Shown: piece by piece, positions 13,687-58,764 of the stretch | Numbering within the stretch: the first letter of the stretch is position 1 | Layout: the number at the start of each line of letters is the position of its first letter | DNA from: Luteolibacter sp. LG18 | GTDB lineage: Bacteria; Verrucomicrobiota; Verrucomicrobiia; Verrucomicrobiales; Akkermansiaceae | NCBI RefSeq assembly: GCF_036322585.1 | Contig: NZ_AP024600.1 | Location: 3,410,001 to 3,474,000 of the forward strand | Direction: 5' to 3' | Length of the DNA stretch: 64,000 nt | Notes under the pieces: generated by a model | What the model was told of the DNA's origin: nothing | The model's input: only the letters and a program-made list of their open reading frames with translations | Databases searched by the model: none | Position numbers and translations under genes: made by a program

Positions 13687-13727
13687 CCGCGTGATGGGCC
13701 CGGGTTGAATCGGCTCTGATGTGGAGT

Positions 13728-13905
13728 GCGGCGAGTCATCGCCGCTTTGAGCGGAGGCGAGACATCGCCGGGGGCAACATCTGCATTTGCCAACCCGTTC
13801 CCACGTTCCAGAATCACGTCCTCCCTGGTTGCCGCTCCTCTTCCGCAGCTCAGCTGCAAATCCCGTCGATTCTCTCCGGCACCCAAAGCGGCGATGCCTC
13901 GCCGC
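13728..13905. repeat. REP-like hairpins GGCGA-N4-TCGCC, three copies
   Basis: GCGGCGA-GTCA-TCGCCGC lies at 13728-13745, GGCGA-GACA-TCGCC at 13756-13769, and GCGGCGA-TGCC-TCGCCGC at 13888-13905. Stems are constant while the four-base loops vary, which marks a dispersed palindromic repeat family rather than coding sequence. Small reading frames across it on both strands are compositional and were not called. Confidence 0.6.
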
Positions 13906-13946
13906 TCTCCAAATCCAGAGCCCTCCTTGGAGGATTTTCCACCCCG

Positions 13947-35400: not shown

Positions 35401-35795
35401 GGGCGGGTGGAGGTAAGATGGCGGAGCAGCTCCGCCACCCAGGCGAGGTGCTTGCGGTTGGCCACCTCGATGCGGGTGCCGTCGGCAAGCGTGACGCGCA
35501 GGGGCTCGGCGACGGCTGCCTGGACCGAAGGCTCCATGGGCGCGTCCACCACAACTTCGGCAAAGGAGTGTTGAACGGGTTCCGGTTCCTGCTGATCCCG
35601 GCGACGCTTCTGCACCCAGGTGGCGAAGGTCGGATACTTCAAGCCGTGTTGGCGGCAGAAGGCCATCGCCGACTGTCCGCCGCGCTCGAAGGCATCGAGC
35701 AGGGCCTCGCGTTGGGAGGGCTCGATCAGCACGCGGCCGCGGGAATCCGATCGGATCAAACCCGGCCCGCCACCGGGATCTACGATAGAGGTCAT
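35394..35795 (-). CDS. tnpA: IS66 accessory protein TnpA (HTH)
   Basis: 133 residues. The middle carries a helix-turn-helix-like stretch (REALLDAFERGGQSAMAFCR, HGLKYPTFATWVQKRR) as in IS66 Orf1 proteins, and the C-terminal motif is RVTLADGTRIEVA. The ATG at 35795 lies inside the loop of a 13-bp inverted repeat, so expression is probably held down by RNA structure. Confidence 0.9.
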   Translation of the reverse strand: MTSIVDPGGGPGLIRSDSRGRVLIEPSQREALLDAFERGGQSAMAFCRQHGLKYPTFATWVQKRRRDQQEPEPVQHSFAEVVVDAPMEPSVQAAVAEPLRVTLADGTRIEVANRKHLAWVAELLRHLTSTRPC

Positions 35796-35823
35796 TCATG
35801 CCTATGTATCACCTCTATCGTAG
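35780..35823 (-). promoter_or_regulatory. 13-bp inverted repeat enclosing the tnpA start codon
   Basis: CTACGATAGAGGT (35780-35792) and ACCTCTATCGTAG (35811-35823) are exact inverted repeats separated by 18 bases. In the minus-strand transcript the tnpA ATG lies in the loop and the first tnpA codons form one arm, while the AGAGG of the other arm could be the ribosome site. This resembles structures at IS ends that block translation from transcripts entering from outside. Confidence 0.6.
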
Positions 35824-35855
35824 GTCCGGGAACGGGGGGCGTGTGGAGCGCTTAC

Positions 35856-56077: not shown

Positions 56078-57127
56078 CTATCCGCGGGCCGGGGCGGTGG
56101 AGTTCCGGACCACCAGCCGGGGCTGGACGGTGAGGCTGCGGCCGGGCGAAGGGGCGGCGCCGGGTTCCAGCCGGTCGAGCAGGCCGCGCACCGCGAGGTG
56201 CATGAGGCGGTCGGTCTGCTGGTCCACGGTGGTGAGCGGGGGATGGAAATGCTCCGCCACGGCGATGTTGTCGTGGCCGACCACCGAGACGTCCTCCGGC
56301 ACGCGGATGCCTTCCTCGCGCAGGCGGTTGATGATGCCGATGGCGATGCGGTCGTTCAGGGCGATGATCGCGGTGGGCAGCTTGCCTTTCGCGGTGGCGA
56401 TCAGCTTGGCGGCGAGCTCGCGGCCGTAGTCGAAGGATTGGCGGGTCTCGCCGGGGTGGAACACGGAGAGGAAGTCGCGCTCGAAATCGAGGCCCACCTT
56501 CGGCGCGTGGCGTTTCAGGCCGGGCATGCGCAGCGAACCGAAGCGGTCGAGCGGGTCGATGCCCAGCAGGGCGATCCGGCGGTGGCCGAGTTCCGCGAGG
56601 TGCTCGAGGACGAGCTTCATGGAGTGGGAGCGGTTGAGCGTCACCTTGTCGCCGGGCACGGCGTTCTCGGGGTCGACCCAGAAGGAGGGGATCTTCTCGC
56701 GCTCCAGCAGCTCCAGGACGGGATCGTCGGACGGCAGGCGGGAGAAGATCAGGACGATGCCATCGACATGCTGGGCCACGAAGCGGCGGAGCGCGTGGCG
56801 TTCCAGGTCCGCGCCGGCACCGGAAAGCTCGATGACGGTGTGGTAGCCCTGCTCGCGCAACTGCTGTTGTAGGGCGGCGGCGCGCATCGCGAGGATCGGG
56901 GAATCGAGGTCCTGGAAGCACACGCCGATGGTGGCGGTCTGGCCGCCGCGGAGGCCGCGGGCGAGGGCGCTGGGTTGGAAATCGAGTTCCTCGATGGCCT
57001 GGCGCACCCGGCGGACGGTTTCGGGCTTTACTCCCTCATGGCCGTTGAGCACACGGGACACGGTCCAGCGGGAGATCCCCAGATGTTTGGCGAGGGCTTC
57101 GGTGGTGTTGAGCCGGGAGTCGGGCAT
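56078..57127 (-). CDS. LacI-family transcriptional regulator
   Basis: 349 residues from the ATG at 57127, where the HTH begins properly (TTEALAKHLGISRWTVSRVL and NGHEGVKPETVRRVRQAIEE). The rest is a full LacI sugar-binding core (IGVCFQDLDSPILAMRAAAL, HVDGIVLIFSRLPSDDPVLE, RRIALLGIDPLDRF, VSVVGHDNIAVAEHFHPPLT, TTVDQQTDRLMHLAVRGLL). Its gene ends 93 bp before the kinase gene, in the same direction. The palindrome in that gap is its likely operator. No similar palindrome was seen before its own start. Confidence 0.92.
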   Translation of the reverse strand: MPDSRLNTTEALAKHLGISRWTVSRVLNGHEGVKPETVRRVRQAIEELDFQPSALARGLRGGQTATIGVCFQDLDSPILAMRAAALQQQLREQGYHTVIELSGAGADLERHALRRFVAQHVDGIVLIFSRLPSDDPVLELLEREKIPSFWVDPENAVPGDKVTLNRSHSMKLVLEHLAELGHRRIALLGIDPLDRFGSLRMPGLKRHAPKVGLDFERDFLSVFHPGETRQSFDYGRELAAKLIATAKGKLPTAIIALNDRIAIGIINRLREEGIRVPEDVSVVGHDNIAVAEHFHPPLTTVDQQTDRLMHLAVRGLLDRLEPGAAPSPGRSLTVQPRLVVRNSTAPARG

Positions 57128-57193: not shown

Positions 57194-57641
57194 GTAGCCG
57201 CGCTCGTGAGAGCGTGGGCGGGGTGGATTCACCCGTATCCTTGCGCGCCCAGTCCTCCCTCAATTTGCCCCTTTTCAAGCCCGGAGGGCGACGCTCCACC
57301 AGGCGGTGGCGCAAGCCACCGGTACGGGACGACATGAGTTCCAAGCCCTGTAGGGGCGACGCAAGCGGAGGCCAGATGGCATTCCCAATGGGAGTTCGCG
57401 TCCGACGTTTGAAGAGTTCCGGATTCTTCCGAACCGCTGGAATGGTAAGTTTGCAGAAATAGCGCAGGCAGCGTCGTCCCTGCCGGGACTTGAATCACTC
57501 CTGGATCTGGTCCGGTGGCTTGCGCCACCGGCTAGTGGAGCGTCGCCCTCCGGGCTCAGACACGACGGTTGCGAATCCAGGGCTCGGGTTGCATGGGCAA
57601 TGGCGAATCCATTCAACCCACGCTCTCCCGAGCGCGGCTAC
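57194..57641. repeat. 448-bp head-to-head inverted-repeat element with nested hairpins
   Basis: Three pairs of arms match in inverted order: 57194-57218 with 57617-57641 (25 bp, one mismatch), 57278-57322 with 57512-57556 (45 bp, differing only in the 4-base centre), and 57342-57362 with 57471-57492 (about 21 bp, imperfect). Within each arm lie smaller hairpins: CGCTC-N4-GAGCG, GGAGGGCGACGCTCC and GGTGGC-GCAA-GCCACC, the last with a GNRA tetraloop. The central 100 bp or so is unpaired. No gene is present; the element fills the gap between LacI and GntR genes. Confidence 0.85.
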
Positions 57642-57663: not shown

Positions 57664-58764
57664 TCACGGGGAAGGGGCGCGTCCCTTTGGGGCGACCGCG
57701 CCGAGGGTGCCGCCGGGGATGAACTCGGGGGTCACGGGGATGTTCCGGGCCTTGCCGGGGCCATGGCGCATGAGGTCCAGCAGCATGCGGCCGATGTGGC
57801 GGCCCAGGGACTTTCCGCTGGTGTGATAACGCGCGATCGCCGGGTGGGTGTGGGCCAGGAAGTTGTCGTCCCAGAGTGAGATGACGCTCGCCTGCGCGGG
57901 AACCTTGATGCCACTGGCGAGGAGGTGGCAAAGCAGGGTCAACGCCATCTCGGGGGCCGCGCACAGGTAGGCGGTCGGATTCGGGCGGGTGGCCAGAAGG
58001 TTCCTCACCGCGCGGCTCATGGTTTCCGGACCGGTTTCATAGGTCGCCACGCGCGCGCGGATGCCGAGGCGACCGGCTTCGGCGAGAACGGTTTCGGCGG
58101 CGATGTGGTCGTTGAGGCTGGTGTGGTTTGCCTGGATGTAAACGAGGTCGCGGTGGCCGCGGGTGTGGAGCAGTCCAGCCGCGTGGCGGGCCGCGGCGAC
58201 GATGTCGGAATAGATGCCGGGGAGGGGGAGTCCGTCATACACGCGTCCGGCGACCACCACCGGTGTGCCGCAGTTGGCGAACCACTTCTGGATCGGCTCG
58301 GTGGCGTAGAACAAGACCCACGCCGCGGTATCCGGGAGGGAGGTGAGCTGGGAGAGTTTCTTCGGCAGGCGGTCCTCGAAGAGCCGCGGGTGGACCTCGA
58401 TCTCCACGCGGTAGCCGGAGGCGGAGATGATTTCGGAAATGGTCTCGTGGAGCGTGTAGTCGATGGACCCCATGCTGGCGGGAGCATAGGGGGTGAGCAT
58501 GCGGATGGTGCGGGCCTCGCTGCGGGCCGGTTTCCGCGGGCGCTTGTGGATGACGTGCGGCCTGCCGCGTCCCCCGAGGGTGATCCAGCGTTCGGCGGCG
58601 AGCTGGGCGAGCGCCTTGCGGACGGTCACGCGGCTGACCTGGAACTCGCGGCAAAGTTCGGCCTCGCTGGAGAGGTGGTTTTTCCACCGGGAGCCGAGGA
58701 TGCCTTCCCGGAGCAGGGCGACGAGTTGGTCGTGGATCGAGATCTTGCGGGGAATTTCAGCCAT
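57664..58764 (-). CDS. GntR-HTH regulator fused to LacI-type sugar-binding domain
   Basis: 366 residues. N-terminal winged HTH of the GntR type (SEAELCREFQVSRVTVRKAL, QLAAERWITLGGRGRPHV), then a LacI/PBP-like core (MGSIDYTLHETISEIISASG, AAWVLFYATEPIQKWF, TPVVVAGRVYDGLPLPGI, VISLWDDNFLAHTHPAIARY). This AraR-like architecture normally represses sugar genes and is released by a ligand sugar. Its target is not certain; the divergently placed giant secreted protein gene and the uronate genes are candidates. Confidence 0.87.
   Translation of the reverse strand: MAEIPRKISIHDQLVALLREGILGSRWKNHLSSEAELCREFQVSRVTVRKALAQLAAERWITLGGRGRPHVIHKRPRKPARSEARTIRMLTPYAPASMGSIDYTLHETISEIISASGYRVEIEVHPRLFEDRLPKKLSQLTSLPDTAAWVLFYATEPIQKWFANCGTPVVVAGRVYDGLPLPGIYSDIVAAARHAAGLLHTRGHRDLVYIQANHTSLNDHIAAETVLAEAGRLGIRARVATYETGPETMSRAVRNLLATRPNPTAYLCAAPEMALTLLCHLLASGIKVPAQASVISLWDDNFLAHTHPAIARYHTSGKSLGRHIGRMLLDLMRHGPGKARNIPVTPEFIPGGTLGAVAPKGRAPSP

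Follow-up and report, generated by a model that had tools for sequence, protein, structure and literature searches.

A 448-bp composite of inverted hairpins in the genome of Luteolibacter sp. LG18 is probably a two-layer MITE-like repeat, and the wider gain from its study probably lies in the hairpin arms found at transposases of TnpA-Y1 subclass 1.2 and in the identity of the Rfam family Acido-Lenti-1 (RF01687). The composite lies in a window of 64,000 nucleotides, i.e., the whole stretch of DNA that was analyzed. A sequence-only reading of the window had left three options for it: a non-autonomous mobile repeat, a large cruciform, or a structured RNA. The first of these fits best, because the element has many dispersed copies, fixed outer ends of the REP type, no target duplication, and related transposases. 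The element likely derives from a unit built around a single-strand (Y1/HUH) transposase, as a miniature and non-autonomous form of it.

The four modules that had been read in mirror order are present between two regulator genes (Table 1), and the middle arms, described as 45 bp long and nearly identical, are 96% complementary. The outer arms, of 63 nt, are 75% complementary. One of the proposed modules, GGAGGGCGACGCTCC, is not a hairpin in its own right; across 14 copies, GCCC-GGA-GGGC forms the hairpin at this place. The incomplete pairing of the right outer REP on the plus strand comes from a single column, where A faces C in 13 of 13 copies; read on the minus strand, the same two positions form a G-T pair. 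Folded as single-stranded DNA, the element reaches -143.8 kcal/mol, against a mean of -88.2 for shuffled sequences (z = -11; 0 of 100 as low), and a cruciform-like fold, the second of the three options, is consistent with these values.

Table 1. Features of the composite element and its neighbors (positions in the window)
Feature	Position	Strand	Remarks
Whole composite element, GTAG...CTAC	57194..57641	.	448 bp; boundaries common to 18 aligned copies
Left outer REP: GTAG foot, stem CCGCGCTC/GAGCGTGG, loop GTGA	57194..57217	+	Helix 100% paired in copies that have it
Small hairpin GGGTG-GATT-CACCC next to left REP	57221..57234	+	78% of cells paired
Hairpin A, left arm, GCCC-GGA-GGGC	57279..57289	+	98% paired across copies
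A–B linker, left arm, CTCCACCAG	57294..57302	+	Partner is 57532-57540
Hairpin B, left arm, AG-ending foot before it	57303..57322	+	Local pairing 100%; two-sided changes at one pair, 6 copies
Hairpin C, left arm, then GACGC	57345..57362	+	96% paired
Core, left part, weak putative remnant of tnpA 5' end	57363..57412	+	Anchored alignment to L077
Core, right part, putative remnant of tnpA 3' end and post-stop bases	57401..57470	+	Anchored alignment to L093/L077
Hairpin C, right arm, GCGTC then GTCCC-TGCC-GGGAC	57471..57489	-	Stem invariant, 100% paired, 14 copies
Hairpin B, right arm	57512..57531	-	Local pairing 100%; two-sided changes at one pair, 4 copies
A–B linker, right arm, CTAGTGGAG	57532..57540	-	Linker covariation and permutation
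Hairpin A, right arm, GCCC-TCC-GGGC	57545..57555	-	Stem invariant, 100% paired, 14 copies
Right outer REP, ends CTAC	57618..57641	-	Plus-strand reading 86% paired
Neighbor gene, LacI-family regulator	56081..57127	-	Pfam LacI and Peripla_BP_3
Neighbor gene, GntR/Peripla_BP_3 regulator	57667..58764	-	Pfam

An alignment of 14 copies was used to test pairing within and between the arms. Pairing of the local hairpins reaches 95.7%, against 92.8% after shuffling, with seven pairs changed on both sides; none of 500 shuffles reaches either the pairing or the count of two-sided changes, and seven of 500 reach the number of pair types. The A–B linkers of opposite arms are 94.1% paired with one another, against 78.8% in shuffles (0/500), and their covariation score is 0.480, against 0.209 (0/500). 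Two-sided changes occur at six of the nine pairs of this linker helix, a count reached by 44 of 500 shuffles. When right arms are permuted, 114 of 126 linker positions match where 82.9 are expected, with none of 20,000 permutations as high, and the figures for distinct pairs only are 70 of 81 against 52.3. The copy at 5446334 is the sole one with unlike linkers. The linker result would also fit one enzyme that recognizes both linkers, as opposed to pairing as such.

Two other forms of relation between the arms were considered and rejected. Long-range pairing of B with B' gives 94.0%, against 92.1% in shuffles (25/500 as high), and leaves four of 14 copies unpaired at each of two variable stem pairs, and local hairpins fit better; the type of B stem does not covary significantly between the arms (the same in 10 of 14 copies, p = 0.17). 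Homogenization of whole arms by gene conversion is not indicated, with a likeness of 0.715 within copies and 0.707 between copies (permutation p = 0.18, 10 copies). The earlier suggestion that the units are kept by folding has support from the hairpins and the linker helix and none from the arms taken whole.

A BLAST search of the genome with the element gave at least 120 pieces that fall into at least 40 places when grouped at 1 kb, a lower bound that comes from scoring the best 40 of 100 BLAST candidates; one of the 40 places is itself a transposase unit (L077, described below). The genome-wide count that had been proposed as a check therefore gives a dispersed family in place of a unique sequence. 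An extragenic position is established for the copy in the window. The exact outer end is present in 39 copies in this genome, against none for a reversed control pattern. Of 24 copies that were aligned, 18 retain both outer ends (tabulated separately), and their boundaries are fixed at GTAG/CTAC (or GTGG/CCAC). These 18 are 170–459 bp long, 11 of them being 440–459 bp and seven shorter, and no direct repeat of 3 nt or more was found at the ends of any of the 18, as had been noted for the window copy, where no target duplication was obvious. The seven shorter ones are internal-deletion forms, with both outer ends in place and one or both inner arms lost or degraded. Copies at 4429097, 4561648, 1110597, and 577555 are missing one or both outer REPs, and relatives of the inner part only are found at five places (206937, 482183, 3570150, 3584324, and 5510732), which fits a separately mobile inner unit. 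The full-length copies are 72–87% identical to the window element, and this level of identity gives nothing that points to recent activity.

The outer ends have the canonical layout of a REP, GTAG followed by CCGCGCTC-GxGA-GAGCGTGG, i.e., a GT[AG]G foot on a stem-loop of the 6–13 bp class. PMC3733652 and PMC6006769 describe GTAG-footed REPs together with their RAYT transposases. The search for a REP-associated transposase, also suggested by the sequence-only reading, led to another genome of the genus (G018), in which four copies of the same outer REP (three with GTAG, one with GTGG) surround the gene of a class-2 RAYT (MPDHAHFLW ... YILRNPQRAGLV) at a locus that also holds four copies of a second, inverted REP. 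The RAYT in the LG18 genome (L106, 3371535-3372053) is 57% identical to the one in G018 and is accompanied by a related but different REP, GTAGCTGCGTTG-GTGA-CAACGCAG; intermediate REP sequences are also held in the LG18 genome. Among 61 genomes of the genus, the outer REP pattern is found in two, with 41 matches in LG18 (G000) and 93, counted with a shorter pattern, in G018. A RAYT of the outer-REP type is found in three (G000, G018, and G066), and the two RAYT loci examined in G066 have no such outer REP. Judged by eye, three class-2 RAYT genes of the LG18 genome (L100, L102, and L104) are flanked by a different REP around GGGACATTCCTGTCCC, and L103 and L105 each come with other REP types.

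The inner arms match the ends of transposase-bearing units in the same genome, the related Y1 transposases of which answer the earlier call for matching IS ends. The genome has 18 Y1_Tnp matches, 16 of them above the cut-off. Nine small Y1 proteins carry DHVH, WQ, and Y---Q--HH (9/9, by eye), and a profile of such proteins has nine matches in the genome. Passages of PMC6006769 (Quentin 2018) give Y---Q--HH, WQ, DH[IV]H, and a length of about 148 aa as the signature of TnpA-Y1 subclass 1.2. By this motif the nine are of subclass 1.2; a Y motif without HH, as in subclass 1.1 (IS200/IS605), is seen in none of them. The tnpA gene of L077 (3208268-3208609; NCBIfam IS200, 72.3 bits) is bracketed by hairpins A-B-C and C'-B'-A' of the same family as those of the window element. 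That of L093 (gene at 3554726) has a right arm of this family, and a block similar to left hairpin C is found beside both genes. A covariance model built from the arms of the window family alone scores the two arms of L077 at 73.2 and 54.1 bits and one arm of L093 at 45.1 bits. Exact 12-mers are common to the inverted flanks at seven of the nine small tnpA genes, the other two being L093 and L095, the start codons of which are probably mis-set.

The core of the element, from C to C', is 108 nt long. In an anchored test, chosen after the collinear arms were seen, the last 70 nt (anchored at C') align to tnpA (L093/L077) at its 3' end and just beyond the stop, with none of 1,000 dinucleotide shuffles as good in 12 of 28 copy–gene comparisons and 84 of 1,000 in the weakest. 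The sequence GAAGAGTTCC precedes C' by 60 nt in eight of 14 copies; in the L077 and L093 genes the distance is 62 or 63 nt. The first 50 nt, anchored at C, match the 5' end of L077: in all 15 copies tested, no more than 31 of 1,000 shuffles align as well. Unanchored local alignment, which covered six of eight copies, exceeded its 200 shuffles in one of 12 comparisons, at a noncollinear part of tnpA. The case that the core holds short pieces of the start and end of tnpA is fair but not overwhelming, the anchored alignments pointing with modest strength to an interior derived from a transposase gene, and the element looks like a MITE-like copy from which tnpA has been deleted.

A scheme for how such a miniature derivative may move can be proposed, including the cleavage sites and the division of labor between two enzymes. 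Once single-stranded DNA is exposed, as may happen on the lagging strand, hairpins B and the outer hairpins would fold, and the two A–B linkers would pair with each other and draw the arms together. A Y1 transposase supplied in trans would then cut at the feet of the hairpins and copy or move the segment without a target duplication. The composite is bounded by its outer GTAG ends, and we therefore think it more likely that an enzyme of the RAYT type moves the 448-bp unit; a TnpA of subclass 1.2 may have moved, or may still move, the inner unit. The cross-pairing linker would be a candidate guide or cleavage element of these enzymes.

It is also conceivable, if unlikely, that the inner subclass-1.2 TnpA alone moves the composite and that the outer GTAG REPs are passengers or earlier insertions. 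The closely matching arms of a tnpA in the same genome, while its RAYT carries a different REP, can be taken in this sense, as can the copies that lack one or both outer REPs and the five inner-only matches. However, the outer GTAG/CTAC ends bound 18 copies, and both of these ends are kept in the seven internal-deletion copies with lost or degraded inner arms.

Part of the spread of the family is duplication of larger pieces, because some copies have flank in common beyond the ends of the element. The comparison of flanks was confined to the fetched loci, among which two solo outer REPs, at 2213361 (L067) and 3594726 (L080), have about 1 kb in common (98%), the copies at 3114340 and 3920007 have 60 bp (98%), and those at 3194461 and 3256887 have about 206 bp (91%). 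An empty site was sought by way of the neighbor gene in 61 genomes of the genus, where the best relatives are 43–44% identical, and no orthologous site was found. Common flanks of up to 1 kb, together with the divergence of the copies and the lack of an orthologous site for comparison, would suit a passive repeat, i.e., an old palindrome spread by recombination or segmental duplication with hairpins that persist for supercoiling or transcription ends. We regard this as improbable given the boundaries fixed in 18 copies, the likeness in design and family between its arms and those that adjoin tnpA genes, and the core pieces that align with tnpA ends.

A protein search found 50 loci of subclass-1.2 tnpA in other genomes, mostly in Verrucomicrobia and also in Planctomycetes, Acidobacteria, Bacteroidetes, and others. 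Akkermansiaceae and other Verrucomicrobia supply the named relatives that score best with the small transposase. The arm tests left out the partial matches L169–L171 and covered 47 loci, with 44 counted after those with <150 nt of flank on a side were dropped. Inverted arms (score ≥30) are present at 37 of the 44; among the controls, none of 116 far-flank pairs and three of 84 mixed pairs reach this score. The far-flank control, taken from these loci themselves, replaced a cross-locus control that homology between loci had spoilt (nine of 43 own scores above its 99% point; 36 of 43 better than shuffles). A stricter A–linker–B pattern is found upstream at 28 of the 44 loci, downstream at 20, and on both sides at 16, compared with three of 249 control windows, and the foot of the B hairpin ends in AG in 26 of the 34 loci listed (counted by eye). 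A table in PMC6006769 has "no" under REP for subclass 1.2, and the accompanying passages describe generally no terminal secondary structure; the inverted hairpin arms of the subclass-1.2 loci are a point of difference from that account.

Acido-Lenti-1 is listed as a probable RNA of Acidobacteria and Lentisphaerae in a passage of PMC2864571. Rfam classes RF01687 as an sRNA, and its alignment has the layout B, CTA linker, A. Within the 50 tnpA loci it has 18 matches at the gathering score, all within 440 nt of the tnpA match, in six loci and none in the other 44, and at four of the six the nearest matches bracket the gene in inverted orientation. In the LG18 genome, RF01687 brackets the L066 gene and lies on one side of L093, and below threshold it flanks L097 (both sides) and L094; the other five small tnpA loci of this genome have no match at E up to 0.5. 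At least 22 matches in the genome are over the cut-off, among the best 150 of 1203 candidates that were scored. When matches with E up to 1e-3 are taken, 26 of 47 form 13 inverted pairs and none form pairs in the opposite order; 10 of the 13 have a gap of 103–126 nt, and two are around a tnpA. The short pairs with a 103–126 nt gap are REPIN-like and too small for a transposase gene (G000 485977-486194, 663310-663507, 1105347-1105539, 1154842-1155037, and others). More generally, Acido-Lenti-1 sometimes lies near group II introns.

Across 115 genomes of the phylum, RF01687 (E up to 1e-4) occurs in 13, and a strong subclass-1.2 gene occurs in 14, by a cut chosen after the list of 18 genomes was seen, with G116, G128, G145, and G099 (~60–79 bits) taken as subclass 1.1 and left out. 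Both occur in 10, such that the gene is found in 10 of 13 genomes with RF01687 against four of 102 without it (Fisher p = 3.5e-9, kinship ignored); with the four weak genomes counted, the figures are 10 of 13 against eight of 102 (p = 1.4e-7). Seven of the eight genomes over the RF01687 cut-off have a subclass-1.2 gene. G133, one of the three RF01687 genomes without a strong gene, has a tnpA fragment between two RF01687 matches. Among 30 RF01687 loci taken with up to ~1.5 kb on each side, seven hold a subclass-1.2 match (five distinct genes, one of them the G133 fragment) and 23 hold none. G156 has 44 RF01687 matches, many of two unusual lengths (64–66 nt and 33 nt), and these are perhaps a separate expansion with insertions or deletions.

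The arm model of the window family gives 11 matches (E up to 0.1; best E 1.5e-5, a rough value) in seven of 47 tnpA loci, and all 11 are in the expected place and orientation (four on the minus strand upstream, seven on the plus strand downstream). In 39 loci chosen for RF01687 or tnpA it gives 14 matches, nine of which are in RF01687 loci at seven distinct places, all but one with E of 0.02–0.09. In the other direction, the right arm of the window element has no match to RF01687 even at E of 10 and falls short of the gathering score of 37 bits, and an Rfam search of the window gave weak matches, none near a gathering score. A copy of the same family at 1110830 scores 34.7 bits with RF01687, and the inner-only relatives at 3584546 and 482160 score 43.6 and 50.1 bits. 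Acido-Lenti-1 appears to be the same kind of end as the inner arm of the element. It is very doubtful that the element or an Acido-Lenti-1-like arm is instead a small RNA or an RNA regulator of neighboring genes, as the Rfam filing, the conserved stems with G-U pairs, and the strong fold might suggest, since RF01687 adjoins tnpA genes at some loci and stands in 13 inverted and no opposite pairs in this genome, as expected of transposon ends, and the window is without an Rfam match near a gathering score; for the element, an RNA function is not needed.

We think it fairly likely that the Y1 enzymes of subclass 1.2 constitute a third REP-like system beside IS200/IS605 and the RAYTs and that Acido-Lenti-1 is the DNA end of this system and not primarily an RNA. 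Such a system, spread over Verrucomicrobia, Acidobacteria, Planctomycetes, and others, would have inverted ends made of hairpin sets with cross-pairing linkers and would shed MITEs, and the window element would be a chimera with ends for two different Y1 transposases. An Rfam "RNA" of unknown function would thereby gain a concrete explanation, and a transposase subclass described as being without REPs would gain hairpin ends; cleavage of single-stranded DNA can test both. Acido-Lenti-1 is still read as a possible regulator of protease genes in a passage of recent work (PMC13298647); should it prove to be a transposon end, such readings need care. Mentions of Acido-Lenti-1 or RF01687 in passages of PMC13298647, PMC10059132, and PMC7682815, from a search mostly of papers outside subscription and outside bioRxiv, make no link to a transposase.

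Comparison with known systems shows what the element shares with each. Like REPINs and BIMEs with their RAYTs, it has a GTAG foot, an 8-bp stem with a tetraloop, a head-to-head pair, and no target duplication, and the same REP stands at a RAYT in a genome of the genus (G018). Unlike them, it encloses some 400 bp in which a second, different set of hairpins is found along with what are likely remnants of another transposase gene, and the RAYT in its own genome has a diverged REP. Like MITEs, it has many copies and no gene, and it keeps both ends along with what seem to be pieces of the start and end of tnpA, but its ends are mirror-image hairpin sets of a Y1 transposase framed by a second set of ends. 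DDE elements, by contrast, have simple terminal inverted repeats. With IS200/IS605 (TnpA subclass 1.1) it has in common partner transposases of the Y1_Tnp family, end hairpins, and no target duplication; the differences are that its arms are inverted with three hairpins and that the transposases carry the subclass 1.2 motif Y---Q--HH.

RF01687 resembles the inner arm in its two hairpins (8 bp with a 4-nt loop, then 4–5 bp with a 3-nt loop) and in a linker that begins with CTA, and some of its members are picked up by the model built from the window family's arms, whereas the right arm in the window has a linker of 13 instead of 12 and is unmatched by the RF01687 model. The CGTC-tagged REPs (Di Nocera 2013) are similar in that CGTC precedes hairpins A and C of the right arm, but by eye CGTC is missing from most of the other subclass-1.2 arms. 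A passage of PMC3733652 defines these REPs by a CGTC foot and a stem of 8–9 bp that begins with A/T pairs. Identity with them was rejected because the stems here are of 4–5 bp with G-C first, not 8–9 bp with two A/T pairs.

Other repeats were seen alongside the element. A second MITE-like family is found in the LG18 genome at 577192-577541 (L058), 3616654-3616939 (L081), and 3639373-3639708 (L082), with arms that match the L098 tnpA unit (by eye); the L058 copy at 577192 appears, also by eye, to be nested inside hairpin B of an element of the window type. The window itself holds a dispersed repeat of about 190 bp at 13718-13928, with 45-nt inverted arms that are 82% complementary and related copies at 3194862, 3257291, 3259405, 4474565, 2945779, and other places. 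At 35773-35830 it holds a 27-nt inverted repeat (85%) with a 4-nt spacer, CCGGGATCTACGATAGAGGT....
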